From: Acidimicrobiia bacterium
GTDB taxonomy: Bacteria; Actinomycetota; Acidimicrobiia; IMCC26256; JAMXLJ01
Direction: 5' to 3'
Assembly: GCA_024281095.1 (NCBI GenBank)
Contig: JAMXLJ010000050.1
Location: forward strand, 1-35,739
Length of the DNA: 35,739 nucleotides
This document shows, piece by piece, positions 4,273 through 33,967 of this stretch. The notes below the pieces were generated by a model. The model saw only the letters and a list, made by a program, of their open reading frames with translations. It made no database searches and had not been told where the DNA came from. Every line of letters begins with the position of its first letter. The first letter of the stretch is position 1. A program made the position numbers and the translations under genes.

Positions 4273-4296
4273 GGACCGCGGACGGAGCACGGGTTC

Positions 4297-6347: not shown

Positions 6348-6349
6348 CC

Positions 6350-6837: not shown

Positions 6838-6838
<1 letters not shown>
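6350..6838 (+). CDS. nuoE: NADH-quinone oxidoreductase subunit E (nuo1)
   Basis: The 24-kDa-family subunit of the NADH-oxidising module, carrying [2Fe-2S] cluster N1a. The 162-aa protein has a helical N-terminal region and a thioredoxin-like C-terminal domain. The four ligands are present in normal spacing: Cys81 and Cys86 (CTNATC), then Cys115 and Cys119 (ECIAACGGAP). Its ATG lies 2 bp after the nuoD1 stop, and its TGA overlaps the nuoF1 ATG by one base. No counterpart exists in the second nuo operon. Confidence 0.96.
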
Positions 6839-8147
<1,309 letters not shown>

Positions 8148-8151
<4 letters not shown>

Positions 8152-12133: not shown

Positions 12134-12813
12134 TGGGCCGGTTCAGCGGGTTCGGCGTCACGCTGCGGCAGATGTTCCGCCCGCGCGTCACCGAGGAGTA
12201 CCCGGAGGTGAAGCGGCCGAAGCCGGCGCGCTTCCACGGCCGTCACGTCCTCAACCGGTACGAAGACGGCATGGAGAAGTGCATCGGCTGCGAGCTGTGC
12301 GCGGGTGTCTGTCCGGCGAGGTGCATCTACGTGCGCGGCGCCGACAACCCGCCGGACGCGCCCGTGTCCCCCGGCGAGCGGTACGGGTTCGTCTACGAGA
12401 TCAACTACCTGCGCTGCATCCATTGCGACCTCTGCGTCGAGGCCTGTCCGACCGAGGCGATCACCGAGACGAAGCTCTTCGAGTTCTCCTTCACCAACCG
12501 CGCCGATGCGGTGTACACGAAGAACGAGTTGCTGGTCGACGACCAGGGCCGGGCCAAGCGCCTGCCGTGGGAGCAGTGGATCGGCGACGAGGACGTCCCC
12601 ACGAGCGCGTGGATGCGCGCGACATCGCCCAACGGTGCTGCGGTCTACGAAGGCCGCGTGCAGTGGTCCGGCGAGCTCGGGTTCGGCGTACGGCTGCCCG
12701 AGCACGGGCAGGCGCTCGAGCTCGACGAGGACGAGATCGAGACCGCGCCGCCGTCCGAGCCCGTCGCCGCACGTGACGAGGAGCAGGACCACGACGAAGG
12801 GCACGGTCACTAG
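12133..12813 (+). CDS. nuoI: NADH-quinone oxidoreductase subunit I (nuo1)
   Basis: Peripheral ferredoxin-like subunit bearing clusters N6a and N6b, relaying electrons to N2. The GTG at 12133 overlaps the nuoH1 stop by one base, with GAGGAG about 8 nt upstream. In the 226-aa protein the two 4Fe-4S motifs are Cys50, 53, 56, 60 and Cys95, 98, 101, 105. After the ferredoxin core the protein carries a tail of roughly 80 residues that becomes very acidic and ends in a His/Glu/Asp-rich DHDEGHGH segment; NuoI2 lacks such a tail. Its TAG stop shares a base with the GTG of nuoJ1. Confidence 0.95.
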
Positions 12814-13388
12814 TGGAGACGGTGCTGTTCTTCGTGTTCGGCACGTTCGCGCTCGGCGGCGCCCTCGGTGTCGTGCTCGCGCGCAACCCTGTGCACTCCG
12901 CGCTGTTCCTCGTGCAGACGCTCGTCAGCATCGCCGTGTACTTCATCGTCGAGGAGGCGGAGCTGCTCGCGGCCGTCCAGGTGATCGTCTACGCCGGCGC
13001 CATCGTGGTGTTGTTCCTGTTCGTGATCATGCTGATCGGCGTCGACCGGCAGGAGGACCTCGCGCAGGACCCGATCCCGTTCCAGCGCCCGCTCGCGGTC
13101 GCGCTCGGGGTAGCGGCGTTCGTGGAGATCCTCGTGCTCGCCGGCTCCACATGGGCCACCGGCGAGCACACCGCTCGCGGCGTGCCGGTACGCGGCGGGA
13201 GCTTCGGCAACAACGTCGACCGGGTGGCGCGGGTGCTCTTCACCGACTTCCTCTGGCCGTTCGAGCTCACCGCGCTGCTGCTCGTGATCGCGGTCGTCGG
13301 CGGGGTCGCCCTCGCCCGGCGCAGCCGGCACCGCCCTCCGCCGACGTCGGTGCCGGCCGACGCGCCCGAGGAGATGACGGCCAGATGA
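12813..13388 (+). CDS. nuoJ: NADH-quinone oxidoreductase subunit J (nuo1)
   Basis: Membrane subunit (ND6 family) next to the Q module; its third helix undergoes the conformational change linked to pumping. The 191-aa protein has five hydrophobic helices, with the family's [20 protein letters not shown] helix near residues 52-71 including the conserved Tyr. The N-terminal NPVHSALFL motif follows the first helix. The C-terminal tail is polar. The GTG start overlaps the nuoI1 stop, and the stop overlaps the nuoK1 ATG as ATGA. Confidence 0.93.
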
Positions 13389-13696
13389 TCGCCGCCGTCA
13401 CCGGCAACTACTACCTGGTGCTCGCCGCGCTGCTCTTCACGATCGGCGCGATCGGCCTGCTCGTGCGGCGCAACGTGCTCGTCATGTTCATGTGCGTCGA
13501 GCTCATGCTCAACGCGGCGAACCTGACCTTCGTCACGTTCGCACGCATGCTCAACGACGTGGGCGGCCAGGTGATCGTGTTCTTCACATTGGTCGTCGCG
13601 GCGGCCGAGGTGGCGGTCGGTCTCGCGATCATCGTCGCGATCTTCCGCCGTCGTCAGGGCGCGACGGCAGACGACGTCGACGTGCTGAAGGGCTGA
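13385..13696 (+). CDS. nuoK: NADH-quinone oxidoreductase subunit K (nuo1)
   Basis: Small membrane subunit (ND4L family) contributing to the proton path. The 103-aa protein has three helices and the two buried glutamates expected of NuoK: one in [12 protein letters not shown] (second helix) and one in [12 protein letters not shown] (third helix). The RRN motif precedes the second helix, as is usual. The ATG overlaps the nuoJ1 stop. A 32-bp gap, the second longest in this operon's membrane half, separates it from nuoL1, which has its own GGAG ribosome-binding site. Confidence 0.95.
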
Positions 13697-13728
13697 CACG
13701 TGTCGAAGCGGCGGAAGACGGAGCGACG

Positions 13729-15765: not shown

Positions 15766-17345
15766 TGGAAGGCTTCCCGATCCTCACCGCCATCATCCTC
15801 ACGCCGTTCGTCGGCGCGCTCGTCACGATGGTGTTGCCGCGTCGCCGCCCCGAGTACGTGCGAGTCGTCGGCTTCGTCGCAACCGCGGCGACGTTGGGCT
15901 TCGCCGGCGCGTTGCTCTACAGCTTCCACACCCACTCCGGCGGCTACCAATTCGTCGAGAACACGTCGTGGATGGGCACACTGGGCGTCCGCTACCACCT
16001 CGGCGTCGACGGCATCAGCCTCTTCATGGTCGTTCTGACCGCGCTGCTGTTTCCGCTCGGGCTGCTCGGAGCGGGCGACATCGAGGAGCGTCTCAAGGCG
16101 TTCACCGTGTGGATGCTCGTGCTCGAGTCGGCACTGCTCGGCGTGTTCCTCGCCCTCGACCTCGTGCTGTTCTTCGTGTTCTTCGAGATCGTCCTCGTGC
16201 CGATGTACTTCATCATCGGCCAATGGGGGCACGGCCGACGCGTCTACGCGGCGACGAAGTTCTTCCTCTACACGATGACGGGCTCGGCCTTCCTCCTCGT
16301 CGGCCTGCTGTCGGTTGCGTTCCTCCACCAGGCGTCCACAGGGCGGCTCACCTTCGACCTCCCCACCCTCATGCAGTGGACGTCGGCGCCCGGCAACTTG
16401 TCCTCGGTGACGTCGAAGGCGTTGTTCCTCGCATTCTTCGCCGCCTTCGCGGTGAAGGTGCCGCTGTTCCCGCTGCACACGTGGCTCCCCGACGCGCACA
16501 CCGAGGCGCCGACAGCCGGTTCCGTGATCCTGGCGGGCGTGCTCCTCAAGATGGGCACGTACGGCTTCCTGCGGTTCTCGCTGCAGCTCTTTCCGAGAGC
16601 CGCGGTATCACTTGCCCCGTTGTTGCTCGTGCTCGCGACGATCGGGATCGTCTACGGCGCGATCGTCGCCGCCATGCAGCCCGACCTGAAACGGATCATT
16701 GCGTACTCGTCCGTCGCGCACCTGGGCTTCGTGGTGCTCGGCATCTTCGCGTTGACCACACAGGGCATCGAGGGTGGCGTCTTCACGATGATCAGCCACG
16801 GCCTCACCACCGGCGCGCTGTTCCTGCTCGTCGGCATGCTCTCCGACCGCCGCCACACGCGCGAGGTGGCCGCATTCGGCGGGCTGTGGAAGTCGATCCC
16901 CGTGTTGTCGGGCCTCTTCCTCCTGGCGACGTTCGCCTCGATCGGCCTTCCGGGACTGTCGGGATTCGTCGGCGAGTTCCTCGCGCTGATCGGCACGTTC
17001 ATCGTGCACCGGCCCTACGCGATCGTCTCGGCGGTCGGCGTGATCCTCGCCGCCGTGTATCTGCTGTGGGCCTTCCAACGGGTCTTCACAGGAGTACCCG
17101 ACGGTGAGAACGCGACCCTTCGCGACATCAGCGTTCGTGAGCTCAGCACGGTCGTCCCGCTGCTCGCGCTCTCGCTGTTCCTCGGCATCTACCCGAAGCC
17201 CGTGATCGACCGGGTCCAGCCGTCGGTGCAAGCACTGATCTGTCACGTCGAACGAACCACCAACTACCGGCAACCCGCGGTCGCGGTCGGTGGTGGTGCG
17301 GTCGCCGCGAAACGGACCGACCCGTGCGCGGGAGTGTCGAAGTGA
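15765..17345 (+). CDS. nuoM: NADH-quinone oxidoreductase subunit M (nuo1)
   Basis: Antiporter-like proton pump subunit (ND4 family). The 526-aa protein has about 14 helices. The pump glutamate is in FFEIVLVPMYFIIG, and the lysine-bearing helix contains KVPLFPLHTWLPDAHTEAPT; KRIIAYSSVAHLGFV and the later GLPGLSGFVGEF motif also match. After the last helix there is a polar tail of about 40 residues with two cysteines, which I do not know to be a family feature. The ATG shares a base with nuoL1's stop, and the TGA sits inside the GTGA start of nuoN1. Confidence 0.96.
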   Translation: MEGFPILTAIILTPFVGALVTMVLPRRRPEYVRVVGFVATAATLGFAGALLYSFHTHSGGYQFVENTSWMGTLGVRYHLGVDGISLFMVVLTALLFPLGLLGAGDIEERLKAFTVWMLVLESALLGVFLALDLVLFFVFFEIVLVPMYFIIGQWGHGRRVYAATKFFLYTMTGSAFLLVGLLSVAFLHQASTGRLTFDLPTLMQWTSAPGNLSSVTSKALFLAFFAAFAVKVPLFPLHTWLPDAHTEAPTAGSVILAGVLLKMGTYGFLRFSLQLFPRAAVSLAPLLLVLATIGIVYGAIVAAMQPDLKRIIAYSSVAHLGFVVLGIFALTTQGIEGGVFTMISHGLTTGALFLLVGMLSDRRHTREVAAFGGLWKSIPVLSGLFLLATFASIGLPGLSGFVGEFLALIGTFIVHRPYAIVSAVGVILAAVYLLWAFQRVFTGVPDGENATLRDISVRELSTVVPLLALSLFLGIYPKPVIDRVQPSVQALICHVERTTNYRQPAVAVGGGAVAAKRTDPCAGVSK

Positions 17346-18838
17346 TCGGCACGGTGACCCCCATCGTCACGCCGAAGATCGAGTGGCTCGCACTCGCGCC
17401 CGAGATCGCCCTCGGCGCCGCGGGCGTCCTCATCGTGCTCGCGAAGGCATTGATGCGCCGGAGGCCCGGCGTGTTCGGGCTCTCGATCGTCATCGCGTTC
17501 GTCGGGGTGATGACGTCGGGTGCGTTCATCGGCAAGCAATGGGTCGACGTCCGCCATGGTGGGCCGTTCACGACGATCAGAGGCATGGTCGCGCTCGACG
17601 GGTTCGGCGTGTTCCTCGGCATGGTGGTGCTCATCGCGACGGTGCTCGCGCTCCTGCTGTCGATCCGCTACCTCCAGCGCGAGGGCCTCGACGCGCCGGA
17701 ATACCTCGCGTTGATGCTGTTGTCCGCGGCCGGCATGCTCGCGATGACGACCGCCGGCGACCTCGTCGTCGTCTTCGTCGCGCTCGAGATCCTCTCGATC
17801 CCGCTCTACGTGCTCGCGGGCTTCGATCGAAGGCGGCTCACCTCGCAAGAGGCCGGCATGAAGTACTTCGTGCTCGGCGCGTTCTCCTCCGCCGTGTTCC
17901 TCTACGGCATCGCGCTCGTCTACGGGGCCACTGGCACGACGTCGCTCACCGGCATCGCGCGGTTCCTGGCCGGCAACACGGTCGTGCACGAGGGGGTCCT
18001 CTACGCCGGTCTCGCGCTGCTACTCGTCGGCCTCGGCTTCAAGGTGGCGGCGTCGCCGTTCCACATGTGGACGCCCGACGTGTACCAGGGCGCACCCACT
18101 CCGGTCACCGCGTTCATGGCCTCGGCCACGAAGGCCGCCGGCTTCGCCGCGCTCCTTCGCGTGCTCGGCACGGCCTTCGGCCTCTACAAGGCCGACTGGC
18201 ACCTCGCGATATTCGGGCTCGCGACGCTCTCGCTCGTGGTCGGCAGCGTCGCCGGTCTCGTGCAGCGAGACGTCAAGCGACTGCTCGCGTACTCGTCGAT
18301 CGCGCACGCGGGCTACGTCCTCATGGGACTCGAAGCTGCGACCGCGCGTGGCTTCGCCGCCGCACTCCTCTATCTCTTCGTGTACGCGTTCATGGTCATC
18401 GGAGCGTTCGCGGTCGTGCTGCTCGTCGGCCGTCGCGGCGACGAGTCCCACGACCTGGACGACTACCGCGGTCTCGCCGGCCGGGCGCCGATGTTGGCCG
18501 GCGCGCTCACCTTCTTCCTGCTCGCGCAGGCCGGAATGCCGTTCACCGGCGGTTTCGTGGTGAAGTTGCAGGTGTTCGCGGCGACGATCCAGGCCGGGCA
18601 GTACGCGATGACGATCGTCGGGGTGCTCGCCTCGGTAGTCGCGGCCTTTTACTACCTGCGCGTGGTCGTGGCGATGTACATGAGTGAGCCGGACGGCGCG
18701 CCCACGCCCGTGCTCCGGATCGATCCGGCGACCGCCCTCGTGCTCGTCGCCGCCGTGGCCGTCACCTTGTTCATCGGCTTCCTCCCCGGGACGTTCCTTC
18801 ACTTTGCGCGCGACGCCACCCTCATCTTCAGGGCGTGA
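17342..18838 (+). CDS. nuoN: NADH-quinone oxidoreductase subunit N (nuo1)
   Basis: Antiporter-like proton pump subunit (ND2 family), last gene of the first operon. I chose the GTG at 17342 because it makes the usual four-base GTGA overlap with nuoM1 and has GGGAG 7 nt upstream; a GTG six codons earlier is possible. The 498-aa protein shows the pump glutamate in FVALEILSIPLYVLAGF and the lysine in GFKVAASPFHMWTPDVYQGAPTP-like sequence, then KRLLAYSSIAHAGYV. Around fourteen hydrophobic helices are visible. A 156-bp gap follows before nuoA2. Confidence 0.95.
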   Translation: MIGTVTPIVTPKIEWLALAPEIALGAAGVLIVLAKALMRRRPGVFGLSIVIAFVGVMTSGAFIGKQWVDVRHGGPFTTIRGMVALDGFGVFLGMVVLIATVLALLLSIRYLQREGLDAPEYLALMLLSAAGMLAMTTAGDLVVVFVALEILSIPLYVLAGFDRRRLTSQEAGMKYFVLGAFSSAVFLYGIALVYGATGTTSLTGIARFLAGNTVVHEGVLYAGLALLLVGLGFKVAASPFHMWTPDVYQGAPTPVTAFMASATKAAGFAALLRVLGTAFGLYKADWHLAIFGLATLSLVVGSVAGLVQRDVKRLLAYSSIAHAGYVLMGLEAATARGFAAALLYLFVYAFMVIGAFAVVLLVGRRGDESHDLDDYRGLAGRAPMLAGALTFFLLAQAGMPFTGGFVVKLQVFAATIQAGQYAMTIVGVLASVVAAFYYLRVVVAMYMSEPDGAPTPVLRIDPATALVLVAAVAVTLFIGFLPGTFLHFARDATLIFRA

Positions 18839-18954: not shown

Positions 18955-18994
18955 CCGCGCGTCATCCCGCCGTCGGGTTGAGAGGCCCCGCCGC

Positions 18995-19357
18995 GTGACG
19001 AGCTACTACCACTCATACCTTGCTGTCGCGGTCTTCGTCGGCGCCGCGCTCCTGATGGTCGGCGCCATGCTCGGCGTCGGCCGACTTGTTCGGCCGGTAC
19101 GGCCGCAGGCCGAGAAGTACGTCACCTACGAAGCCGGGTCCGATCCGGTCGGCGGGTGGGGACAGTCGAACGTCCGTTACTACGTCTACGCGCTGCTGTT
19201 CGTCATGTTCGACGTCGAGGCGGTGTTCATCTTCCCCTGGGCAGTGCACCTCGACGTGCTCGGTTGGTACGGCCTCGTGGAGATGGCGATCTTCATCATC
19301 GTGCTCACGCTGGGCCTCGTGTACGCCTGGCGCAAAGGGGTGCTCCGGTGGGCCTAG
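18995..19357 (+). CDS. nuoA: NADH-quinone oxidoreductase-like subunit A (nuo2)
   Basis: First gene of the second complex I-like operon. The GTG at 18995, with GAGAGG 9 nt upstream, gives a 120-aa protein of the usual NuoA length; the frame stays open further upstream but without helices or family likeness. Three membrane helices are seen, with the conserved [12 protein letters not shown] loop and the [14 protein letters not shown] motif. The protein is clearly diverged from NuoA1 (160 aa), so the two are not a recent copy. Its last ten bases overlap the nuoB2 start. Confidence 0.92.
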
Positions 19358-19875
19358 TCGAGAAGGGCGTGCTCGGGAAGAAGCCCCTGAAGCCCGTCAC
19401 GTGGCTGCTCAACTACAGCCGGAAGTACTCGCTGTGGATGTTCCAGTGGGGCCTCGCCTGCTGCGCGATCGAGATGGCAGCCGCGCTCGCGAGCCCTCGC
19501 TACGACATGATGCGCCTCGGTGTCATCCCGTTCCCGGCGAGCCCGCGCCAGTCCGACCTCGTCGTCATCTCCGGCACGGTCACCGACAAGATGGCCCCGG
19601 CGATCAAGCGTCTCTACGAGCAGATGCCCGACCCGAAGTACGTGATCTCCATGGGCTCGTGCGCGAACTGCGGTGGGCCCTACTGGGACTCGTACTCGGT
19701 GACGAAGGGCGTCGACCAGATCATCCCGGTCGACGTCTATGTGCCCGGTTGCCCGCCGCGGCCGGAGGCGCTGCTCCAGGGCATCGTCCTGCTGCAGGAG
19801 CGCATCCAGAAAGAAGGCCTCGGGAACGACGACCTCGGGGCACGCTGGCGCGGGGAGCCGATCGTCGTTGAGTGA
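19348..19875 (+). CDS. nuoB: NADH-quinone oxidoreductase-like subunit B (nuo2)
   Basis: N2-cluster subunit of the second complex. The GTG at 19348 overlaps nuoA2 by 10 nt and has AAAGGGG 7 nt upstream; it gives 175 aa and the expected N-terminus ahead of the first conserved helix. N2 ligands are Cys38-Cys39 (LACCAIEM), Cys105 and Cys135 ([10 protein letters not shown]). An extra Cys108 follows Cys105 (CANC), where NuoB1 has Thr-Gly. Unlike hydrogenase small subunits it keeps the tandem-cysteine motif of true complex I. It overlaps the TTG of nuoC2 by 8 nt. Confidence 0.95.
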
Positions 19876-20662
19876 CATCGGGAAAGAGGAGAGCGGAGCA
19901 GCCGAGGAGGAGCAGGCCGAACGCGCGCTCGCCGAGACGGACGAAGGCGCGGCCGCCGAGTTGGCGCGGGCCGATGCCGACGAGATCGGAGCGGCTCCGA
20001 CCGACGACGTCGCCGACGAGGGGCCCCAGCTCGATCCGTCGGTACTGCCCTTGCTCGAGCGGCTCGAAGCCGAGCTCGGCGACGCCATCCTCGACCGGGC
20101 CGAGGCCTACGGCACGCTGGTCGTGCGCGTTCGTCCCGATGCCTGGCGCCGCAGCGCCGAGGTGGCGAAGTCGAAACTGTCGTGCGACTACCTCAGCTTC
20201 ATCTCCGGGCTCGACTGGCAGCCGGCGCCACGTGAGGGTGGCGAAGCCGGGGGCGACACCTCCGCGCCGGTGCAACCCACGGAAACGACGTTCGGGCTCG
20301 CCGGTTCGGCCGGGCGTTTTCAGGTCTTCGCGCATGTGCAGTCGACCGCGCACCACTACGGCGTCACGTTCAAGGCCGACGTCGACGACGCCGACCCTCG
20401 CGCAGAGTCGTGGGTTCCCGTCTACGCCGGCGCCGACTGGCACGAGCGCGAGTGCTGGGAGATGTTCGGCGTCGTGTTCGACGGGCATCCGGCGCTCCGG
20501 CACCTCTATCTTCCGACCGAGTTCGAAGGGCACCCGCTCCGCAAGGACTTCCCCCTGCTCGCGCGGGAGGTGAAGCCCTGGCCCGGTCTCGTCGACGTCG
20601 AGCCGATGCCGGGTGAGGCCGGCGAAGGCGCGACCGCGGACGCGGAAGGCGGTGACGCATGA
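19868..20662 (+). CDS. nuoC: NADH-quinone oxidoreductase-like subunit C (nuo2), TTG start
   Basis: 30-kDa-family subunit of the second complex. No ATG or GTG is suitably placed; a TTG at 19868, 8 nt inside nuoB2, has GGGGAG 10 nt upstream and is the best start, giving 264 aa. About 50 acidic residues precede the folded domain, echoing the low-complexity start of NuoC1. The core shows [18 protein letters not shown] and [16 protein letters not shown], the 30-kDa signature. A polar Gly-rich insert lies near 120-136. The stop overlaps the nuoD2 ATG as ATGA. Presence of nuoC here matters, because NuoC is needed to bridge NuoD to the rest of the peripheral arm. Confidence 0.9.
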
Positions 20663-21846
20663 GCACGACCGAGACACCGCAGGTCCCGGGTTTCGAGATC
20701 GAGCCGCGCGATCTCCGGCACCTCGCGGACGCGCAGATCAACGTCGAGCTCGACACCGGCGACATGATCCTCAACCTCGGGCCGCAGCACCCGGCTACGC
20801 ACGGCACGCTGCGGCTGGTCGTGCGCCTCGACGGCGAGCGCGTGATCGCGGCCGACCCCGTGATCGGCTATATGCACCGCGGCTACGAGAAGCTGACCGA
20901 GTTCCGCACCTACCCACAGATCACCACGCTGGTCAACCGCATCGACTGGCTCTCGAGCTTCGCCAACGAAGTGCCGTTCATCCACGCGGCCGAACTGCTC
21001 ATGGGGATCGAGGCGCCGCCGCGCGCGGTGTGGATACGCACGATCCTCACCGAGCTCTCGCGCATCGCGACCTTCTACCTGTTCCTCGGCGAGATGGGCC
21101 TGCAGCTCGGCGCGTTGACGCCCGCGTTCTGGGGGTTCCGCGACCGCGAACACGTGCTCAATCTGATCGAGGCCGCGACCGGCGGTCGCTTCCATCCCAA
21201 CTTCAATCGCATCGGCGGCTTGAAGGACGATCTTCCGTGGGGATGGGTGTCGGAGACCCGTACCGCGATGAAGGCGATCCTCGACGGCTGCGACGACTTC
21301 GAGGACATCCTCATCGGCAACGAAATCTTCGAAGCACGCACACGCGGCATCGGGATCATCCCGGGCGAGATCGGCGCGAACTACGGCGTCTCGGGCTCGA
21401 ACCTGCGGGCGTCGGGCATCGACTGGGACCTGCGACGCGACGGGAAGCCCTATCTCGCGTACCCGGAGCTCGACTTCAAGGTCTGGACCCACCCCGACGG
21501 CGACTCGTTCAGCCGCTACTGGGTGCGGCTCCAGGAGACGCGTGAATCGGCGCGGATGGTGCTGCAACTGCTCGACGGGCTGCCGAGCGGGCCGATCATG
21601 GCGAAGGTGCCGCGGATCATCAAGGTGCCCGAGGGCGAGGCCTGGGTCGAGACGGAGAACCCACTCGGCCAGATGGGCTACTACGTGATCTCCAAGGGCG
21701 CCACGGGCCCGTTCCGGGTGAAGATCCGGTCGGCGTCGTTCAGCAACGTCTCGATCCTGCCCTGGCTGCTGCGCGGGGTCTACGTTCCCGACGTCATCAC
21801 GATCCTCGCGTCGCTCTACTTCATCCTGGGCGACATCGACCGGTGA
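20659..21846 (+). CDS. nuoD: NADH-quinone oxidoreductase-like subunit D (nuo2), altered quinone site with HRG motif
   Basis: 49-kDa-family subunit of the second complex, 395 aa, without the charged extension of NuoD1. Aligned without gaps to the bovine protein, His59 is His48, the dimethylated Arg85 is Arg74 (MHRGYEK) and Arg105 is Arg94. Two quinone-site residues are changed: Tyr108 is Trp97 (NRIDWLSSF) and Asp160 is Gln149 (GLQLGALTP). All intervals (26, 20, 3 and 52 residues) match exactly, so misalignment is unlikely. The protein has a single cysteine near 210 and no CxxC pairs, which excludes a [NiFe] hydrogenase. The fold is otherwise family-typical, including FNRIGGLKDDLPWGW. Confidence 0.95.
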   Translation: MSTTETPQVPGFEIEPRDLRHLADAQINVELDTGDMILNLGPQHPATHGTLRLVVRLDGERVIAADPVIGYMHRGYEKLTEFRTYPQITTLVNRIDWLSSFANEVPFIHAAELLMGIEAPPRAVWIRTILTELSRIATFYLFLGEMGLQLGALTPAFWGFRDREHVLNLIEAATGGRFHPNFNRIGGLKDDLPWGWVSETRTAMKAILDGCDDFEDILIGNEIFEARTRGIGIIPGEIGANYGVSGSNLRASGIDWDLRRDGKPYLAYPELDFKVWTHPDGDSFSRYWVRLQETRESARMVLQLLDGLPSGPIMAKVPRIIKVPEGEAWVETENPLGQMGYYVISKGATGPFRVKIRSASFSNVSILPWLLRGVYVPDVITILASLYFILGDIDR

Positions 21847-21853
21847 TGCCCTG

Positions 21854-22882
21854 ATGCTGCAACTCGCCGTGGATATCGGATGGGGCTGGACGCTGGCCTT
21901 CAAGACCGTGCTCGTGCTCGCGGTCGTGCCACTCGCCGCGCTCGTGCTCGGCTACACGTTCCTGCTCAAGATGATGAGCCACATGCAGAGCCGGTTGGGC
22001 CCGATGGACCCCGGCGGCTTCCACGGGTGGTTCCAGCTCGTCGGCGACGGGATCAAGTTCCTCCAGAAGGAAGACGTCATGCCGGCCGAGGCCGACCGGC
22101 GCGTGTTCGCGATCGCACCCGCGGTCGTCGTCATCTCGACGTTCCTCGTCTTCGTCGTGGTGCCGACCGGGCCGAAGCTCGTGGTCGAGAACCTCGACGT
22201 CGGCGTCTTCTACGCGCTCGCGGTGTCGAGCCTGTCGGTCATCGGCGTGCTGATGGCCGGCTGGGCCAGCGCCAACAAGTTCGCGTTGCTGGGCGCGCTG
22301 CGCGCCGCGGCGCAGCTCATCGCCTACGAGCTCCCGCTGCTGCTCGCCGTCGTCGGCGTCGTCGTGCAGGCGGGCACGATGAGCTTGCAGGGGATCGTGC
22401 ACGCGCAGCAGGCCGGCAGCATCTTCGGCTGGCACGGCATCGGCTTTCCTTTCATCCTCACGCAGTTCGTCGGCTTCCTGCTGTTCCTGGTCGCGTCACA
22501 GGCCGAGCTCACGCAGACACCATTCGACATGCCCGTGGCGGAGAGTGAGCTCGTCGCGGGCTACATGGTCGAGTACACCGGCTTCCGTTTCCTCTTCTTC
22601 TTCATCGGCGAGTTCGGCACCGCGTTCGCGTTCGCCGCGCTCGCCGCGACCCTCTTCCTCGGCGGCTGGTCGTTGCCGTGGGTGCATGGTGCCGCGGCCG
22701 ACCTGCTCGGGATCCCGGTCCTGTTCGCCAAATTGATGCTCGTCGCGTTCCTCATGTTCTGGGTCCGGTTCACCTACCCGCGCCTCCGTGAGGACCAGCT
22801 CCAATCGCTGGCGTGGAAGTTCCTGATCCCGATCGGTCTCGCCAACATCCTCGTCACGGGGATCTTCAAGGTGGCCTTCTGA
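21854..22882 (+). CDS. nuoH: NADH-quinone oxidoreductase-like subunit H (nuo2)
   Basis: ND1-family membrane subunit, 342 aa, without the loop insertion of NuoH1. The [22 protein letters not shown] element near residue 45 and the acidic loop [22 protein letters not shown] near 218-239 match the family. The NuoH1 Asn-His before PPFD is replaced by Thr-Gln here. About eight helices are evident. The start ATG lies 7 nt after the nuoD2 stop; an earlier ATG at 21846 hits a stop after two codons. The stop overlaps the nuoI2 ATG by one base. Confidence 0.95.
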
Positions 22883-23367
22883 TGCCGAAGAAGAAGCTTC
22901 CCGGCCTCGTCGAGGGTCTCGGCGTCACGTTCCGCACCATGCTCAAGGGCGCGGTGACGGTGCAGTACCCGCACGAGCGTGAAGACCCCGCACCGCGCGC
23001 CCGCGGGGTCATCGCACTGAAAGAGGAGAACTGCACGGTCTGCATGCTGTGCGCCCGCAGCTGCCCCGACTGGTGCATCTACATCGAGGGCCACAAGGAG
23101 AAGCGCCCGCCGCGCCGTGAGGGCGGTCGCGAGCGCACCGTCAGCATCCTCGACCGGTTCGACATCGACTACGCGCTATGCATGTACTGCGGGATCTGCG
23201 TCGAGGTGTGTCCGTTCGACGCCTTGTTCTGGAGCCCGGAGTACGAGTACTCCGAGATGAGCATCGCCAAGCTTCTCCACGACAAGGACAAGCTCGGCGA
23301 ATGGATGGAGAGCGTGCCCGAGCCGGAACCGCTCGAGATCGGAGCGGAGGTCAAAGGCAAGAAATGA
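22882..23367 (+). CDS. nuoI: NADH-quinone oxidoreductase-like subunit I (nuo2)
   Basis: Ferredoxin-like subunit with clusters N6a and N6b. The 161-aa protein starts at the ATG that overlaps the nuoH2 stop. Cluster ligands are Cys51, 54, 57, 61 and Cys100, 103, 106, 110; an additional Cys65 follows the first set. With no NuoG partner, this is the natural outermost Fe-S subunit of the complex, the position where ferredoxin docks in cyanobacterial NDH-1. It lacks the acidic His-rich tail of NuoI1 and ends in a Lys-rich tail (EVKGKK). A 28-bp gap precedes nuoJ2. Confidence 0.95.
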
Positions 23368-23395
23368 CGCGCTCGGCCGGCGGGGGGACGCACGA

Positions 23396-23899
23396 GTGGT
23401 AGCGGAGAACGTCGCGTTCTGGATCATCGCGGCAGCGATGGCGGGAGCCGCGATCGGTGTCGTACGCACCCAGAACGTCGTGCACGCGGCGCTGTTCCTG
23501 GTCGTCGTGCTCGCCGGCGCGGCCGCGCAGTACATCCTGCTCGCGGCGGAGTTCGTCGCGTGGGTGCAGGTGCTGGTCTACATCGGCGCGATCGTCATCT
23601 TGTTCCTCTTCGGCATCATGCTCACCCGCGCGCCGATGCGAGGCGATACCGAGCTCGACAACGACCAACGCTGGATCGCCGCGGTCACGGCGCTGTTCGT
23701 CCTCGGTGTGCTGGTGTTCCTGCTCGTCGACGCGTTCGGCGACCGGGCGATCAAGGTCGACGACTCGCTTCGTGCCGTCGGGCTCTCGCAGCACGTCGCC
23801 GACTCGATCTTCCGCACGTACGTCATGCCGTTCGAGATCGTGTCCATGCTCCTCCTCGCCGCGCTCGTCGGCGCCGTCGCGATCGCGCGGAGGGACTGA
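23396..23899 (+). CDS. nuoJ: NADH-quinone oxidoreductase-like subunit J (nuo2)
   Basis: ND6-family membrane subunit, 167 aa from a GTG at 23396 that follows a G-rich stretch. Five helices are visible. The conserved helix reads [20 protein letters not shown] and includes the tyrosine at the coupling helix, so the conformational relay looks intact. The loop after it is charged and short compared with NuoJ1. It follows nuoI2 by 28 bp, and its stop is one base before the nuoK2 ATG. Confidence 0.92.
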
Positions 23900-23900
23900 G

Positions 23901-24200
23901 ATGCAGATCAACCAATTCCTGATCCTGAGCGCGTTCCTGTTCTGCACCGGCATCTACGGCGTCCTCGCCCGGCGCAACGGCGTGCTGGTGCTCATGAGCG
24001 TCGAGCTGATGCTGAACGCGGTCAACATCAACCTCGTCGCCTTCGCGGCGTTCAACCACAGTGTGAGCGGCCAGGTGTTCGCGTTGTTCGTCATCACGAT
24101 CGCGGCGGCCGAGGTCGGCGTCGGCCTCGCGATCGTCCTGCTGATCTACCGCAACCTTCGGAGTCCCGACCTCGACCACGTCGACCAGCTGAAGGGCTGA
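23901..24200 (+). CDS. nuoK: NADH-quinone oxidoreductase-like subunit K (nuo2)
   Basis: ND4L-family subunit, 99 aa and three helices. Both buried glutamates are kept: one in [16 protein letters not shown] and one in [13 protein letters not shown]. The start ATG is preceded by a GGAGGGAC-like stretch at the end of nuoJ2. Together with the intact residues in NuoL2, NuoM2 and NuoN2 this argues that the second complex still pumps protons and is not a degenerate copy. It ends 7 bp before nuoL2. Confidence 0.94.
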
Positions 24201-24207
24201 CCTTCCC

Positions 24208-26262
24208 GTGCTCGACTACGCCTGGATCATCGCGTTCATCCCCGCGGTCTCGTTCGTGGCCATCCTGCTGTTGGGGAGGAAGTTCCCGCGCCACGGCTCC
24301 GAGATCGGCATCGCCGCGGTCGGCGCGTCGTTCGTGCTCGCGTGCGTCGCGGTCGTGCAGTGGATCAACCGGGTGGAGAACGCGACCGGAGCGTCGGCCT
24401 TCAAGGCACTGGGCAAGGGATTCGTCGCCAAGGCCGGCGAGCACGAGGCGGTGGTCAAGCCCGTGGTCCACTCCGTCACGTGGTGGCAGAGCGGCGGGCT
24501 CAAATTCGGGGCCGGCACGCAGATCGACGGGCTGGCCGTCGTGCTGCTCTTCGTGGTCACGCTCGTGTCTTTGCTCGTGCACGTCTACTCGACCGCGTAC
24601 ATGCACGGCGACCGGCGCTACACGTACTTCTACGCCGCGCTGAGCCTCTTCACGGCGTCGATGCTGCTGCTCGTGATCGCCGACAACACCCTGCAGCTGC
24701 TGGTGGGCTGGGAGCTCGTCGGCCTGTGCTCGTTCATGCTGATCGGACACTGGTGGGAGGAAGGGGCCAACTCCAATGCGGCCCTGAAGGCCTTCTTCAC
24801 CACCCGAACCGGCGACGTCGGCCTCATGATCGGCGTCATCGTCACGTTCTTCGCCGCGGGCCAAACCTTCAACATCGTGTCGATCAACGAGGCCGCGCTC
24901 GCAGGGAAGGGTGGCCACGCGCTGTGGCTCGGCGGCGCGGTCTGCCTGCTCGTCGGGATCATCGGCAAGAGCGGCCAGTTCCCCCTGCACACATGGCTTC
25001 CCGACGCCATGGCCGGCCCCACGCCCGTGTCGGCGCTCATCCACGCGGCCACGATGGTGGTCGCCGGCGTGTACCTGGGCGCGCGCGTCTATGGCGTGTT
25101 CTGGCAGGGCTTCTCGATCGACGCCGGCGGCGTGAACGCGATGGCGTTGATCGGCGGGGTCACGATCATCATCGGTGCGTTGCTCGCGTTCGTACAGGAC
25201 GACATCAAGAAGGTGCTCGCCTACTCCACGATCAGCCAGCTGGGCTACATGGTCATGGGCCTCGGTGTGGGTGCGTGGACCGCGGCGGTGTTCCACCTCT
25301 TCACCCACGCGTTCTTCAAGGCCCTCCTCTTCCTCGGCGCAGGATCGATCTCCCACTCGGGATCGCACCACAGCTTCGACATGAAGCGCGACATGGGGGG
25401 CCTGCGCAAGTACATGCCGATCACGTTCACCACGTTCATGATCGGCAGCGCCGCGCTCGCCGGCCTGCCTCCGTTCGCGGGCTTCTTTTCGAAGGACGAG
25501 ATCATCGCGACCGCGGGGCACTTCGGCTACGACGCGTTCCTCTACATCGGCCTCGCGGGTGCGTTCCTCACCGCGGCGTACATGACGCGCGCGATCTACT
25601 ACACGTTCTTCGGCGAGTTCCGGGGCCACGGCCAGCCGCACGAGTCACCGCCCGCAATCACCGGCCCGCTCGTGGTCCTGGCCGCGTTCTCGGTGTTTGC
25701 GGGCTGGCTGAACGCGACCGTCGTCCACGTCGAGAAGTTCCAGCAGTGGTTCGAGCCGCGGTTCGCGTTCCCGACCCAGGTGATCCACCCGTCGTTCCGC
25801 TTCGGTGAGGGCGCGATCGCGGTGATCGTCGCGCTGGCCGGCGTCGGCGTCGCGTACGCGTACTACTGGCGGGGGGTCGGCCACGGAGTCACCGAACGCA
25901 ACCCGCTGGCCCGTCTCGGGTATCGGTTCCTGCTGAACAAGTACTACCTCGACGACCTCTACGAGCGGGTCATCGTCGCCGGCATCAAGGGGCCGATCGC
26001 CCGGGCCGCGTACTGGACCAACCAGAACCTGATCGACGCCGTCATCAACGGCGTCGGCAAGGGCACGCGAGCGGTAGGGCAGTTCACGTACGACGTGATC
26101 GATCAGCGTGTCGTCGACGGTGCGGTCAACGGCATTGCCGAGGCAAGTGGCGAGACCGGTGGTTTGCTCCGCTACATGCAGTCGGGTCGTGTGCAGTGGT
26201 ACGCCGCGATCCTGTTCTTCGCGGTGGCCGTGCTGAGCCTCGCGCTGATCGTCTTCAGCTGA
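24208..26262 (+). CDS. nuoL: NADH-quinone oxidoreductase-like subunit L (nuo2)
   Basis: ND5-family pump subunit, 684 aa from a GTG at 24208. The pump glutamate is in VGWELVGLCSFMLIG and the lysine in GKSGQFPLHTWLPDAMAGPTPVSA. The E-to-A change in DAMAGP relative to NuoL1's DAMEGP is also seen in related antiporter families. KKVLAYSTISQLGYM and GFFSKDEII are present, and the C-terminal region carries the lateral-helix segment ending in a final membrane anchor. An N-terminal polar insert lies near residues 55-95. The stop codon overlaps a six-codon reading frame that leads to nuoM2. Confidence 0.95.
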   Translation: MLDYAWIIAFIPAVSFVAILLLGRKFPRHGSEIGIAAVGASFVLACVAVVQWINRVENATGASAFKALGKGFVAKAGEHEAVVKPVVHSVTWWQSGGLKFGAGTQIDGLAVVLLFVVTLVSLLVHVYSTAYMHGDRRYTYFYAALSLFTASMLLLVIADNTLQLLVGWELVGLCSFMLIGHWWEEGANSNAALKAFFTTRTGDVGLMIGVIVTFFAAGQTFNIVSINEAALAGKGGHALWLGGAVCLLVGIIGKSGQFPLHTWLPDAMAGPTPVSALIHAATMVVAGVYLGARVYGVFWQGFSIDAGGVNAMALIGGVTIIIGALLAFVQDDIKKVLAYSTISQLGYMVMGLGVGAWTAAVFHLFTHAFFKALLFLGAGSISHSGSHHSFDMKRDMGGLRKYMPITFTTFMIGSAALAGLPPFAGFFSKDEIIATAGHFGYDAFLYIGLAGAFLTAAYMTRAIYYTFFGEFRGHGQPHESPPAITGPLVVLAAFSVFAGWLNATVVHVEKFQQWFEPRFAFPTQVIHPSFRFGEGAIAVIVALAGVGVAYAYYWRGVGHGVTERNPLARLGYRFLLNKYYLDDLYERVIVAGIKGPIARAAYWTNQNLIDAVINGVGKGTRAVGQFTYDVIDQRVVDGAVNGIAEASGETGGLLRYMQSGRVQWYAAILFFAVAVLSLALIVFS

Positions 26263-26278
26263 TGGAAGGATCGAGGGG

Positions 26279-27799
26279 ATGAACTGGTTCGACTCCGGCT
26301 GGGGCCTCACCATGGCGGTGTTCCTCCCGGGCGTCGGGATGCTCGCCGTGCTTGCCGCGCCGAAGGCCGACGAGACGCTCCAGAAGGCGATCGCGCTCGT
26401 GACCACGCTGGCGACGTTCGGCGTCACGATCGCGTTGGCGGCGACCTTCAACTACGACAAGAAGGGGCTCCAACTCGGTACCGACAAAGCATGGATCGAC
26501 GTCATCAACAGCCGGTACCACATCGGCCTCGACGGCATCTCGCTCCCGTTGCTGCTCCTGTCGGCGTTCATCACGGTGCTGTGCGTCATCTACTCGTGGG
26601 ACCACTTCCCTGAGCCGCACAATCCGAAGGCGTTCCTTGCGCTGATCCTCCTGCTCGAGATCGGCATGAACGGCACCTTCGTCGCCCAGGACCTCATCCT
26701 CTTCTTCGTGTTCTTCGAGATCGTCCTGCTGCCGATGTTCTTCATGATCGGCGTGTGGGGCGGCCCGAACCGTGAATACGCGTCGATCAAGTTCTTCCTG
26801 TTCACCCTGTTCGGCTCCGCGTTGATGCTGTTGAGCTTCCTTGCGCTCTACTTCATCGGACCGAACACGTTCGACATTCCGAAGCTCGCGGCGTTGCACG
26901 GCGCCGGCATCGTCCACAGCACCCAGAACCTGATCTTCGCCGGGATGTTCCTCGGTTTCGCGATCAAGGTTCCGATGTTCCCGTTCCACACGTGGCTGCC
27001 CGACGCCCACACGGAGGCGCCCACGGTGGGCTCGGTGCTCCTGGCCGCGATCCTGCTGAAGCTCGGTACCTACGGCTTCATCCGGATCGCGCTCCCCATC
27101 CTTCCCGAAGCGGCACGCGACTGGGCGCCGTGGATCGGCCTCCTGGCCGTCATCGGCATCATCTACGGCGCACTGGGTTGTCTCGCCCAACGCGACATGA
27201 AACGGCTGATCGCGTTCTCGTCAGTCGCGCACATGGGTTTCGTCATGTTGGGCATCGCGACCCTGACGACGTTCGGCATCAACGCGGCGATCTTCGGCAT
27301 GGTCGCCCACGGGCTGATCACCGGCATGCTCTTCTTCGTCGCCGGGTCGGTGCAGGAGCGCTTCGAGACCCGACAGCTCGACCGGCTGGGCGGCCTGCTC
27401 ACCCAGGCCCCGAAACTGGGGTGGATCCTCGGGTTCTGCGCGATGGCCTCGCTCGGTCTCCCGGGCCTGGCCGGGTTCTGGGGTGAGTTCCCCGCGATCC
27501 TCTCGGCGTACAACCCGGCGAGCGGCATCGCAGGGAGCGAGTTCGTCGTGTTCCGCACCTACATGGTCATCGCGGCGGTGGGCACGGTGCTCGCCGCGGG
27601 GTACCTGCTGTGGATGCTGCAGCGGGTCGCGTTCGGCACCGTCAAGCCGGAGTGGGAGCACGTCCACATCCACGACGTCCACGTTCCCGAGTGGATCGCG
27701 TGGACGCCGATGCTGCTGCTCATCGTGGCCCTGGGCGTCTATCCGAACATCATCTTCCGGGTCACTGACGGTACGGTCACCCGGCTCTTCGGAGGCTGA
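26279..27799 (+). CDS. nuoM: NADH-quinone oxidoreductase-like subunit M (nuo2)
   Basis: ND4-family pump subunit, 506 aa. The ATG at 26279 follows a purine-rich GGAAGGATCGAGGGG leader in the 16-bp gap after nuoL2. The pump glutamate is in FFEIVLLPMFFMIG and the lysine helix has KVPMFPFHTWLPDAHTEAPT. KRLIAFSSVAHMGFV and GLPGLAGFWGEF match the family. The C-terminal loop contains a His cluster (HVHIHDVHV) between the last two helices, near residues 460-470; whether it binds metal is unknown. It lacks the Cys-bearing tail of NuoM1. Confidence 0.95.
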   Translation: MNWFDSGWGLTMAVFLPGVGMLAVLAAPKADETLQKAIALVTTLATFGVTIALAATFNYDKKGLQLGTDKAWIDVINSRYHIGLDGISLPLLLLSAFITVLCVIYSWDHFPEPHNPKAFLALILLLEIGMNGTFVAQDLILFFVFFEIVLLPMFFMIGVWGGPNREYASIKFFLFTLFGSALMLLSFLALYFIGPNTFDIPKLAALHGAGIVHSTQNLIFAGMFLGFAIKVPMFPFHTWLPDAHTEAPTVGSVLLAAILLKLGTYGFIRIALPILPEAARDWAPWIGLLAVIGIIYGALGCLAQRDMKRLIAFSSVAHMGFVMLGIATLTTFGINAAIFGMVAHGLITGMLFFVAGSVQERFETRQLDRLGGLLTQAPKLGWILGFCAMASLGLPGLAGFWGEFPAILSAYNPASGIAGSEFVVFRTYMVIAAVGTVLAAGYLLWMLQRVAFGTVKPEWEHVHIHDVHVPEWIAWTPMLLLIVALGVYPNIIFRVTDGTVTRLFGG

Positions 27800-27804
27800 G
27801 GGCG

Positions 27805-29283
27805 GTGAACCCCCACATCGACTACCACGCGCTCGCGCCGGAGATCGTCCTCTCCGCGACGATCGTCGTGGTGCTGGTCGCGGACCTCTTGTTCCCCGAC
27901 CGTGACCGTTGGCAGACGTCGCGCATCGCGACGATCGGCGTGCTGGGTGCGCTGATCCCGGTGCTGACGCTGGCCGCCGACGGCACCGACCGCTCGATGT
28001 TCGGGGGCGCCTACGTCGTCGACAACTACGCGCTCGTCTTCAAGGGCTTGTTCCTCGTCGCGACGTACGTCACCATCCTGTTGTCGTCGGACTACATCGC
28101 CGAGGGTGACTACTACCAGGGCGAGTTCTGGTTCCTGCTGCTGACGTCGGTGCTCGGCATGGTCGCGATGGCGTCGGCGCGTGACCTCATCTCGATCTTC
28201 GTCGCGCTCGAGACGATCTCGGTCCCTACGTTCGTCCTCGCCGGGTGGCGCAAGCACGACACCCGCTCCAACGAGGCGTCGATCAAGTACTACCTCATCG
28301 GCGTGCTGTCGTCCGCGGTGATGCTCTACGGGATGTCACTCATCTACGGCGTCACCAACTCGACGTTGCTCACCGACATCAGCTCGAAGGCCGGAAACCT
28401 CACCGGTTCCATGGACAACTTGTTCATCGTCGCGGTGTTCCTCACCCTCGCCGGCTTCGCGTTCAAGGTCAGCGCGGTCCCGTTCCACTTCTGGGCACCC
28501 GACACGTACGAAGGCGCACCGACACCGGTCACCGCGTTCCTGTCGGTCGCCTCGAAGGCCGGCGGGTTCGTCGCGCTGCTGACGATCGTCTACGTCGGCT
28601 TCTACCCTTCCGGCCACTCGTGGCAGCCCGTCCTGTGGGGTCTCGCGGCCGCATCGATGACGATCGGCAACCTCACGGCGTTGCGCCAGACGAACATCAT
28701 CCGGATGCTGGCGTACTCGTCGATCGCTCAGGGTGGCTTCATCCTCGTGCCGTTCGCCGTGGCCGGCGACAGCGGTCCGGCCGCGAAGTCCGCGCTCGAG
28801 GCGGTCGTCATCTACCTCCTCATCTACGCGGCGATGAACCTGGGCGCGTTCGCGGTCGTGATCGCGGTGGCGCGGCGCACCCGCAGCGCGGAGATCCGCA
28901 CGTTCGCGGGCCTGGGTCAATGGTCGCCGGCGCTCGCGGTGCTCTTGTCGTTCTTCCTCTTCTCCCTCGCCGGCATCCCTCCCCTCGCGGGCTGGTTCGC
29001 CAAGTTCGTGATGTTCCGGGCAGTCCTGGACGCGCACACGAGCGCGGCCGCGGTCATCGGTGTGATCGCAGCCGTCAACTCGGTCATCGCGCTCTTCTAC
29101 TACGCCGGTGTCGCCAGGCAGATGTGGTTCCGCGAGCCCGCGATCGAGGATCGTCGACCGTTGCGCGTGCCGCCGGCCCTCAACGCCGCCATTGCCGTCT
29201 GCGCGGCGACGGTCCTCGTCATCGGCGTCTACCCGCAGCCGTTCGCCAAGCTGGGCGAGCTCGCGCGCATCGCGCGCTTCTAG
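27805..29283 (+). CDS. nuoN: NADH-quinone oxidoreductase-like subunit N (nuo2)
   Basis: ND2-family pump subunit, 492 aa, last gene of the second operon. The GTG at 27805 has GGAGG 9 nt upstream. The pump glutamate is in IFVALETISVPTFVLAGW and the lysine in FKVSAVPFHFWAPDTYEGAPTP. IRMLAYSSIAQGGFI replaces the more usual KR(L)LAYSSIAH motif, so the His seen in NuoN1 is Gln here. About fourteen helices are present. Only 21 bp separate the stop from the methyltransferase ATG, and no terminator lies between them, so that gene probably belongs to the same transcript. Confidence 0.95.
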   Translation: MNPHIDYHALAPEIVLSATIVVVLVADLLFPDRDRWQTSRIATIGVLGALIPVLTLAADGTDRSMFGGAYVVDNYALVFKGLFLVATYVTILLSSDYIAEGDYYQGEFWFLLLTSVLGMVAMASARDLISIFVALETISVPTFVLAGWRKHDTRSNEASIKYYLIGVLSSAVMLYGMSLIYGVTNSTLLTDISSKAGNLTGSMDNLFIVAVFLTLAGFAFKVSAVPFHFWAPDTYEGAPTPVTAFLSVASKAGGFVALLTIVYVGFYPSGHSWQPVLWGLAAASMTIGNLTALRQTNIIRMLAYSSIAQGGFILVPFAVAGDSGPAAKSALEAVVIYLLIYAAMNLGAFAVVIAVARRTRSAEIRTFAGLGQWSPALAVLLSFFLFSLAGIPPLAGWFAKFVMFRAVLDAHTSAAAVIGVIAAVNSVIALFYYAGVARQMWFREPAIEDRRPLRVPPALNAAIAVCAATVLVIGVYPQPFAKLGELARIARF

Positions 29284-29304: not shown

Positions 29305-30513
29305 ATGAGCCTGCGCGATCGCCTGGTCGAGCGGATCCACCGACAGGGCCCCATCCCGTTCGACGCCTTCGTCGACGCCGCGCTCTACGACCCGGCCGAC
29401 GGCTTCTTCGCGCGCGGGCGCGGTTCAGGCCGGGCCGGGCGCGACTTCGTCACGAGCCCCGAGGTGGGCCCGCTCTTCGGTGCGCTCGTCGCGCGAGCGA
29501 TCGACGACGCCTGGGACGCGTTGGATGGGCCCGATCCGTATCTCGTCGTCGAAGCGGGCGCGGGCAACGGCCGTCTCGCCCGCGAGATCCTGCGGGCTCA
29601 GCCGCGTTGCGCCCGCGCGCTCCGGCTCGTACTTGTCGAGCGCTCGCGCGTGTTGCGCGATGAGCAGCGCGACCGTCTTCCCGTGGAGCCGGTGGAGGAC
29701 GCGCTCGGCCCCGCGCTTCCCGGCGTTGCGGGCGACGCGCCCGTCCCGGTCCCCCGGATCGGGCCGATCGTCACCGCGCTCGACGAGCTTCCCGCGATCG
29801 TCACCGACGGCGTCGTCGTCGCCAACGAGTTGCTCGACAACCTGCCGTTGCGGCTCGTGGAGCGGACGCCGGACGGATGGGCCGAGATCCGCGTGGGTGT
29901 CGACCGTGCGGATGCGCTCGTCGAGGTCGCGGTTCCCGCATCGCGCGAGCTCGCGGTGGAGGCCGACGAGCTTGCCGGAGAGCTCCGCTTCGAGCCGGGG
30001 ACTCGCATCCCGCTGCCAACCGGCGCGGCCCAATGGCTGGCCGACTCATCACGCCTGCTGCGCCGCGGGTTCCTTGTCGTCGTCGACTACGCCGACGAGC
30101 TCGCGTCGATCGCGTCGCGCGAGCCGTCGGACTGGTTGCGGACCTACCGCTCGCATGCTCGCGGCATCGGCGCGCTCGACGTTCCCGGCGGGCAGGACAT
30201 CACCTACGACGTGCCGGTCGAGTACCTCCGCCTGGCGGCGAAGCGGGTCGGCCTCCGCCTCGTCTCCGAGACGACCCAGGCCGAATGGCTGGGGCGTCTC
30301 GGCATCCACGAGCTCGTCGCAGACGCGCGTCGGGAGTGGAGCGAACGCGCCCATGTCGGCGACCTCCACGCGGTGGCTGCACGCAGCCGGGTCGGCGAGG
30401 CGGAGGCGCTGACCGACCCGGCCGGGTTGGGCGCGCACCGTGTGTTCGTGTTCGCGAAGGGTCTACGGCTCCGGGCGTCGCTGCCGGCTCCCGCTCCAGA
30501 GCACGGCGGGTAG
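29305..30513 (+). CDS. SAM-dependent methyltransferase, MidA/NDUFAF7 family
   Basis: Class I methyltransferase of the family (formerly DUF185) whose mitochondrial member NDUFAF7 symmetrically dimethylates Arg85 of the complex I 49-kDa subunit. The 402-aa protein (ATG at 29305; a GTG six bases earlier is possible, and neither has a clear ribosome-binding site) shows the N-terminal LYDPADGFF element and GRDFVTSPEVGPLFG (about 45-59). It also has the SAM-binding EAGAGNG (83-89), VANELLDNLP (about 172-181) and a VVVDYAD strand. It starts 21 bp after nuoN2 and, I infer, acts on NuoD2, which keeps the target arginine that NuoD1 lacks. Methylation of another protein cannot be excluded. acs follows after 39 bp. 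Confidence 0.88.
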   Translation: MSLRDRLVERIHRQGPIPFDAFVDAALYDPADGFFARGRGSGRAGRDFVTSPEVGPLFGALVARAIDDAWDALDGPDPYLVVEAGAGNGRLAREILRAQPRCARALRLVLVERSRVLRDEQRDRLPVEPVEDALGPALPGVAGDAPVPVPRIGPIVTALDELPAIVTDGVVVANELLDNLPLRLVERTPDGWAEIRVGVDRADALVEVAVPASRELAVEADELAGELRFEPGTRIPLPTGAAQWLADSSRLLRRGFLVVVDYADELASIASREPSDWLRTYRSHARGIGALDVPGGQDITYDVPVEYLRLAAKRVGLRLVSETTQAEWLGRLGIHELVADARREWSERAHVGDLHAVAARSRVGEAEALTDPAGLGAHRVFVFAKGLRLRASLPAPAPEHGG

Positions 30514-33121: not shown

Positions 33122-33967
33122 ATGACGAATACCTTCAAGACCTTCGTGCTCCTCGCCCTGCTCGGCGGGATCATCCTCGGCATCGGATCGCTGTTCGGGC
33201 AGAGCGGCCTCGTGATCGCGCTGGTGATCGCGCTGCTGCTCGTGGGCGGGTCGTACTGGTTCAGCGACAAGATGGCGGTCGCGGCGGCCGGCGCGAAGCC
33301 GGTGAGCGAACAAGAGGCGCCCCGCCTCTACGCCATCGTCCGTGAGCTTGCGGCACGCGACAACGTACCGATGCCGCGCATCTACCTCTCGCCGGCGGCC
33401 CAGCCGAACGCCTTTGCCACGGGCCGCAACCCACAGCACGCGGTGGTCGCGGTCACCGCAGGCCTGATGCAGGCCCTCAACGACGACGAGATCCGTGGGG
33501 TCCTCGCCCACGAGATGAGCCACGTGAAGAACCGCGACATCCTCATCGGGTCGGTCGCGGCCGGTCTCGCGATGATGATCACGTTCGCGGCCCGGATGGC
33601 GATGTGGGGAGCGATCTTCACCGGTGGGTCCCGCGACAACGAGGGCGGCAACATCTTCGGGATCCTCGCGATGGCGATCCTCGCCCCGATCGCGGCGGTC
33701 CTCCTCCAGATGGCGCTCTCCCGGTCACGCGAGTACCAGGCCGATGCGTCGGGTGCGCACCTGATCGGCACGGGCGAGCCGCTGGCCCGAGCGCTCGAGA
33801 AGATCGAGGCCTACGCCAAGCAGATCCCCATGGACGTCAACCCTGCGCAGGCGACGGCGTACATCATCAACCCCCTCACCGGGCGCAAGGTGAGCTTCGC
33901 CAACCTGTTCAGTACGCACCCGCCCACGGCCGATCGGATCGCCCGGTTGCGCTCGGGCCGCTACTGA
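33122..33967 (+). CDS. htpX: Membrane zinc metalloprotease HtpX
   Basis: M48-family protease that degrades misfolded or damaged membrane proteins with its active site on the cytoplasmic side. The 281-aa protein has two N-terminal helices (about 8-26 and 29-46) and two more after the active site (about 142-165 and 178-199). The zinc motif HEMSH gives His130 and His134 with catalytic Glu131; Glu204 in SRSREYQAD is the third ligand. FSTHPPTADRI near the C-terminus is also conserved. It is flanked by a stress-type promoter upstream and by hairpins downstream, so it appears to be a single-gene unit. A role in quality control of the adjacent large membrane complexes is speculation. Confidence 0.95.
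   Translation: MTNTFKTFVLLALLGGIILGIGSLFGQSGLVIALVIALLLVGGSYWFSDKMAVAAAGAKPVSEQEAPRLYAIVRELAARDNVPMPRIYLSPAAQPNAFATGRNPQHAVVAVTAGLMQALNDDEIRGVLAHEMSHVKNRDILIGSVAAGLAMMITFAARMAMWGAIFTGGSRDNEGGNIFGILAMAILAPIAAVLLQMALSRSREYQADASGAHLIGTGEPLARALEKIEAYAKQIPMDVNPAQATAYIINPLTGRKVSFANLFSTHPPTADRIARLRSGRY

Follow-up and report, generated by a model that had tools for sequence, protein, structure and literature searches.

The stretch of DNA analyzed here (the window; 35,739 bp of contig JAMXLJ010000050.1, from the 4.39-Mb draft genome of an Acidimicrobiia bacterium) carries two nuo operons in tandem, nuo1 followed by nuo2, and a methyltransferase gene, midA, directly behind the second (Table 1). Because nuo2 is devoid of nuoE, nuoF, and nuoG, the second complex is of the type without an N-module. 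A reading of the letters made without database searches (the sequence-only reading) had spoken of a second complex; a second nuo operon is indeed present, but it does not encode a second full NADH dehydrogenase. The midA gene starts 21 bp after the nuoN2 stop codon, as that reading had stated, and its ORF is open throughout (402 residues), with an alternative in-frame GTG start possible at 29299. An acetyl-CoA-synthetase-like gene (acs) comes next. Elsewhere in the genome, a small contig holds a short C-terminal fragment of a third NuoD (G000, C160:1850-2005, L324) that shares 73% identity with NuoD1 across about 52 residues and represents a remnant or a contamination.

Table 1 Features of the window discussed in the text.
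Feature	Position	Strand	Remark
nuo1 operon, 14 genes, including nuoF and nuoG	3338..18838	+	
nuoB1, Arg at the Thermus Nqo6 Arg83 position (codon 3961-3963)	3742..4272	+	
nuoD1, Thr-type GYLHTGMEK	5010..6347	+	
NuoD1 Thr100 codon ACC, motif HTG	5307..5309	+	
nuo2 operon, A-B-C-D-H-I-J-(K)-L-M-N, without nuoE/F/G	18994..29283 (start approximate)	+	nuoK assigned from a short gap only
nuoB2, Thr at the Thermus Nqo6 Arg83 position (codon 19576-19578)	19354..19875	+	
nuoD2, Arg-type GYMHRGYEK, predicted substrate	20659..21846	+	
NuoD2 Arg74 codon CGC, motif HRG, equivalent of bovine NDUFS2 Arg85	20878..20880	+	
nuoN2, directly upstream of midA	27805..29283	+	stop codon 29281-29283
midA, MidA/NDUFAF7-family (COG1565) SAM-dependent methyltransferase	29305..30513	+	PF02636, AlphaFold model
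M48 (HtpX-like) peptidase	33122..33967	+	

The midA product belongs to the MidA/NDUFAF7 family and is a predicted arginine methyltransferase. It matches PF02636 (Methyltransf_28) with 129.4 bits, compared with a curated cut-off of 23.3, and a profile search revealed it to be the sole PF02636 gene of the genome. From an alignment of 23 sequences AlphaFold gave a model with a mean pLDDT of 89, for which Foldseek ranked 4f3n, 4g67, 5zu0, 5ztz, and 1zkd at the top (TM 0.70-0.80, E ~1e-24 or better), including the solved MidA structures 5zu0 and 5ztz with TM values of 0.76-0.78, whereas methyltransferases other than the COG1565/MidA structures were far weaker (E 3e-8). The match to 5ztz is also found at the sequence level, and identity to Dictyostelium MidA is only 21-22% across the fold. 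Columns invariant in 23 relatives (DFxTSPE, the GxG SAM loop, NExxD (NExxDN), DY, and G..DIT) recur with small changes in the alignments with 4f3n and 1zkd. A contig scan with the single protein retrieved no relatives; the alignment-based scan retrieved 569, of which the best 80 were kept, nearly all of them named Actinomycetota.

A potential client of this enzyme is encoded in its own genome. Human NDUFAF7 modifies Arg85, and the human and Dictyostelium MidA relatives both act on the subunit concerned (PMC3829151). The equivalents named for bovine Arg85 are Thermus Nqo4 T64 and an arginine of E. coli NuoCD; Paracoccus complex I carries a dimethylarginine at the equivalent site, Nqo4 Arg65, whereas E. 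coli retains the arginine in unmethylated form (PMC3750175). NuoD2 Arg74 aligns with Thermus T64 and the E. coli arginine, which bears out the earlier assignment of this residue to the position of bovine Arg85. The difference between Arg74 in NuoD2 and Thr100 in NuoD1 likewise holds, both in the codons and in the homology of the site. MidA, its mitochondrial substrate, and its bacterial relatives are already known (PMC9006661, which cites Shahul Hameed 2018).

The two NuoD proteins also differ at the quinone site, where NuoD2 Trp97 (20947-20949) occupies the position of a tyrosine (Thermus Nqo4 Tyr87, Yarrowia Tyr144). Trp was found in 122 of the 122 nuo2-type NuoD sequences read and Tyr in all HTG-type NuoD, suggesting that the site for quinone or another acceptor differs in the second complex.

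An intersubunit switch has been described at the arginine site: in Thermus, which is without the NuoD arginine, the side chain of Nqo6 Arg83 (Thr in Yarrowia) occupies that space (PMC8042128). The window contains both arrangements. Complex 1 combines NuoB1 Arg74, aligned to Nqo6 R83, with NuoD1 Thr100, as in Thermus, and complex 2 combines NuoB2 Thr75 with NuoD2 Arg74, as in mitochondria. The same pairing was observed in all fetched loci of the class Acidimicrobiia in which both motifs are readable, the NuoB motif being unreadable in a few. The closest solved NuoB to NuoB1 is 8e9g. With Thr in NuoD1 and Arg in NuoB1, complex 1 is without a MidA target at this site, as had been proposed, and a structural substitute is apparently supplied by the NuoB1 arginine. 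In this respect it resembles the Thermus/Mycobacterium-type complex I with HTG-type NuoD (NuoB Arg, NuoD Thr), which is not a MidA client at the site.

We searched 148 genomes of the class for PF02636, HRG-type NuoD, and HTG-type NuoD, and found them in 122, 127, and 134 genomes, respectively. The midA gene and HRG-type NuoD occur together in 120 genomes, HRG-type NuoD alone in 7, midA alone in 2, and neither in 19. In both midA-only genomes (G040 and G108) midA follows nuoN2 and a contig end cuts nuo2 before the motif, and in no genome of the 148 is midA found without a nuo2 operon. Six of the seven HRG-only genomes have contigs that end before the expected midA position (G021, G039, G093, G111, G025, G081), leaving a single one, G109, unexplained by contig ends. 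The profile search found MidA absent from the HTG-only families f23, f28, and f29. The lack of nuo2 in G036, of the same genus as the window, was given little weight, as its nuo1 contig stops inside nuoL1.

Conserved linkage in relatives, a test set in advance, was observed across Acidimicrobiia, with midA usually right after nuoN2. Whenever midA and the HRG-type nuoD share a contig they lie on the same strand, and midA is typically located at most ~140 nt from the nuoN2 stop or slightly overlaps it. Judged from gene order, this placement is not due to chance, because the same-strand order after nuoN2 is kept in most of the class, even where MidA identity falls to 24%. An operon linking the enzyme gene to the gene of its predicted substrate, as originally suggested, is thus present in most of the class but not in some families that have midA outside the nuo operon; in f22, midA is unlinked to nuo2 and both are nonetheless present. 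Since much of the co-loss in the class is to be expected from adjacency alone, the survey of the phylum carries more weight.

Outside the class, we examined 215 Actinomycetota genomes, counting NuoD with HRG, HRA, or HRS as Arg-type. MidA was found in 57 of 99 Arg-type genomes, 2 of 32 Thr-only genomes, and 1 of 84 genomes without either motif; conversely, Arg-type NuoD is present in 57 of the 60 genomes with MidA. Counted by family, 18 have both, 10 only Arg-type NuoD, 1 only MidA, and 23 neither (Fisher p = 6e-6). The sequence-only reading had staked its proposal on MidA not being equally common in genomes with only HTG-type NuoD, and it is indeed rare there. MidA is therefore nearly always accompanied by Arg-type NuoD, and the reverse does not hold. 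Both genes also occur in f37, where midA is unlinked to nuo2. The exceptions are G232 and G338, with only Thr-type NuoD found, and G310 (83% complete), with neither motif. The residue after the conserved arginine varies (HRA in f43, f77, and part of f46; HRS in G188 and G312), and G318 carries HRG in an altered sequence context outside the initial motif pattern. Beyond the phylum, our statements rest on the literature and 14 control genomes.

Two sets of apparent cases were set aside. MidA seemed to occur with Thr-only NuoD in f43 and f77, but the genes read there are of the HRA type, missed by the first pattern. The midA of G277 (family f47) is a probable contamination from Acidimicrobiia: its contig equals L162 in length, match position, and identity, and the genes there are 53-79% identical to the nuo2-midA-acs run of the window. 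The tally of 215 genomes and the family counts still include G277. Members of f69 (G232 with L246 and L247, and G320) show at least two PF02636 matches, G232 being the one with only Thr-type NuoD found, and the extra matches are possible MidA paralogs with another substrate.

Arg-type NuoD without MidA was found in 42 genomes outside the class. As the arginine also stays unmodified in E. coli, its presence does not imply methylation. Twenty-three of the 42 carry Phe as the second residue past the arginine (HRxFEK), a feature shared by three genomes with MidA; 23 of 26 genomes with HRxFEK-type NuoD2 (e.g. L275, L276, L279) hence have no MidA, whereas most others of the nuo2 type have it. This pattern may reflect phylogeny, or Phe may substitute for the role of the methyl groups. 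At least one of the Arg-type cases without MidA, that of G239, looks hydrogenase-like rather than nuo2-like.

A second arrangement was found in genomes where nuoD2 has left its operon. In f54 (Streptomyces-like, judged by gene order and a genome size of 7-10 Mb), f43, f77, and f66, nuo2 has the order A-B-C-H-I, nuoH following nuoC without an intervening nuoD (nuo2 operons without nuoD are seen in L314, L316, L317, and L319); f42 likewise passes from C to H without D, the stretch read there stopping in H. The sole Arg-type nuoD found in these genomes adjoins midA or lies a few kb off, often in convergent orientation: the distance is 64-80 bp in G235 and G274, ~260 bp in G169, and 6-8 kb in G193, G245, and G304. 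In most of those read, midA accompanies the relocated nuoD2 and not the end of nuo2. nuoD2 and midA thus stay together in two different arrangements, and this pairing is a more direct pointer to NuoD2 as the substrate than operon membership.

A gene for an M48 (HtpX-like) peptidase, also present in the window, repeatedly neighbours nuoN2 or midA across the phylum (L078, L128, L314, L316, L319), even where midA has moved away. Its product may serve in quality control of the second complex.

Could MidA be a genuine methyltransferase with another main substrate, either a different nuo2 subunit or a shared protein, so that its correlation with Arg-type NuoD reflects nothing but co-inheritance of nuo2? 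The physical linkage of midA and nuo2 in most of the class predicts joint gain and loss without any NuoD chemistry, and the 42 genomes that have the arginine and no MidA also fit. We nevertheless consider this unlikely, given that the co-occurrence persists in f22 and f37 where midA is unlinked, that midA stands beside the relocated nuoD2 and not at the nuo2 end, and that the human and Dictyostelium relatives target this very subunit (PMC3829151). It is quite improbable that midA became caught behind nuo2 with no functional link and was kept through shared transcription only. One ancestral event could give the adjacency seen in the class, and acs too follows midA in many relatives; however, in families where acs no longer adjoins midA in the stretch read, the nuoN2-midA adjacency outlasts it. 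Nor would a trapped gene account for the second arrangement outside the class, with midA beside a solitary nuoD2, or for Thr-only genomes being almost devoid of MidA.

A further proposal, made for Wolbachia MidA, is that the protein methylates nucleic acids, m4C and m6A having been detected, with no conserved motif, in E. coli expressing Wolbachia midA (PMC12455994). The site after nuoN2 would then be incidental. The dependence of midA on Arg-type NuoD and its pairing with the relocated nuoD2 are unexpected for a DNA enzyme, and such a role of the window's MidA seems to us extremely improbable.

We conclude that midA probably encodes a MidA/NDUFAF7-type arginine methyltransferase acting on NuoD2 Arg74 during assembly of the NuoEFG-less complex I. 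Family membership, linkage, co-occurrence with Arg-type NuoD, the matched NuoB/NuoD switch, and the relocated nuoD2-midA pairing are the observations on which this conclusion is based; methylation of Arg74, its symmetric form, and a role in assembly would follow by analogy with the human and Paracoccus data (PMC3829151, PMC3750175). MidA would bind newly made NuoD2 and methylate Arg74 with SAM as the donor, either ahead of docking with NuoB2 or in the course of it, the product probably being a symmetric dimethylarginine. This would ready the loop that packs against the N2 cluster in NuoB2. Complex 1 would not be a MidA substrate at this site, its arginine coming from NuoB1 and NuoD1 having Thr. 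The idea of a dedicated assembly factor for the second complex, put forward in the sequence-only reading, is consistent with the linkage, the near-restriction of MidA to genomes with Arg-type NuoD, and the absence of the site in complex 1, and is weakened by the occurrence of the arginine without MidA. With moderate confidence, we extend our conclusion to the phylum: of the two complex I isozymes that coexist in Actinomycetota, the methyltransferase may serve just one, with nuoD2-midA forming a separate assembly unit that remains intact after nuoD2 leaves the operon, and the isozymes may be split by the source of the arginine on the N2 side, presumably a methylated one from NuoD2 versus an unmodified one from NuoB1.

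Human NDUFAF7 and Dictyostelium MidA are of the same family, and the predicted bacterial target is the equivalent arginine of the homologous subunit. In contrast to these enzymes, the bacterial gene is part of an operon that encodes one of two coexisting complexes, and its product, ~22% identical, is known here from sequence and a model. Alphaproteobacteria share the family (Rhodopseudomonas 1zkd) and, in Paracoccus Nqo4 Arg65, an equivalent modified site (PMC3750175), whereas in the example read, Sphingomonas, midA belongs to an lgt-midA-GNAT-pgeF cluster away from nuo, and there is no contrast of two complex I copies. Like the window, Actinomarinales have two nuo clusters, one of them EFG-less, for which use of F420H2 was proposed (PMC7771536); the passages found of that account mention neither midA nor the arginine or the NuoB/NuoD switch. 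MidA with its relatives and the EFG-less nuo cluster were thus already known, whereas the midA-nuo linkage, the dependence on Arg-type NuoD, and the nuoD2-midA pairing appear to be new: we found no report of them in the open-access literature, subscription papers lying outside the search.

These results offer a likely function for a gene usually annotated merely as a SAM-dependent methyltransferase, and the pairing of enzyme and complex suggests a dedicated, testable assembly step. They also bear on what makes a methylated arginine near cluster N2 necessary in mitochondrial complex I, when the E. coli arginine is unmodified and Thermus has none. Cells of these soil and water bacteria, having both arrangements with the enzyme tied to one, represent a natural side-by-side experiment, and lineages with Arg-type NuoD and no MidA, together with culturable Streptomyces in which nuoD2 lies beside midA, make the question experimentally tractable.
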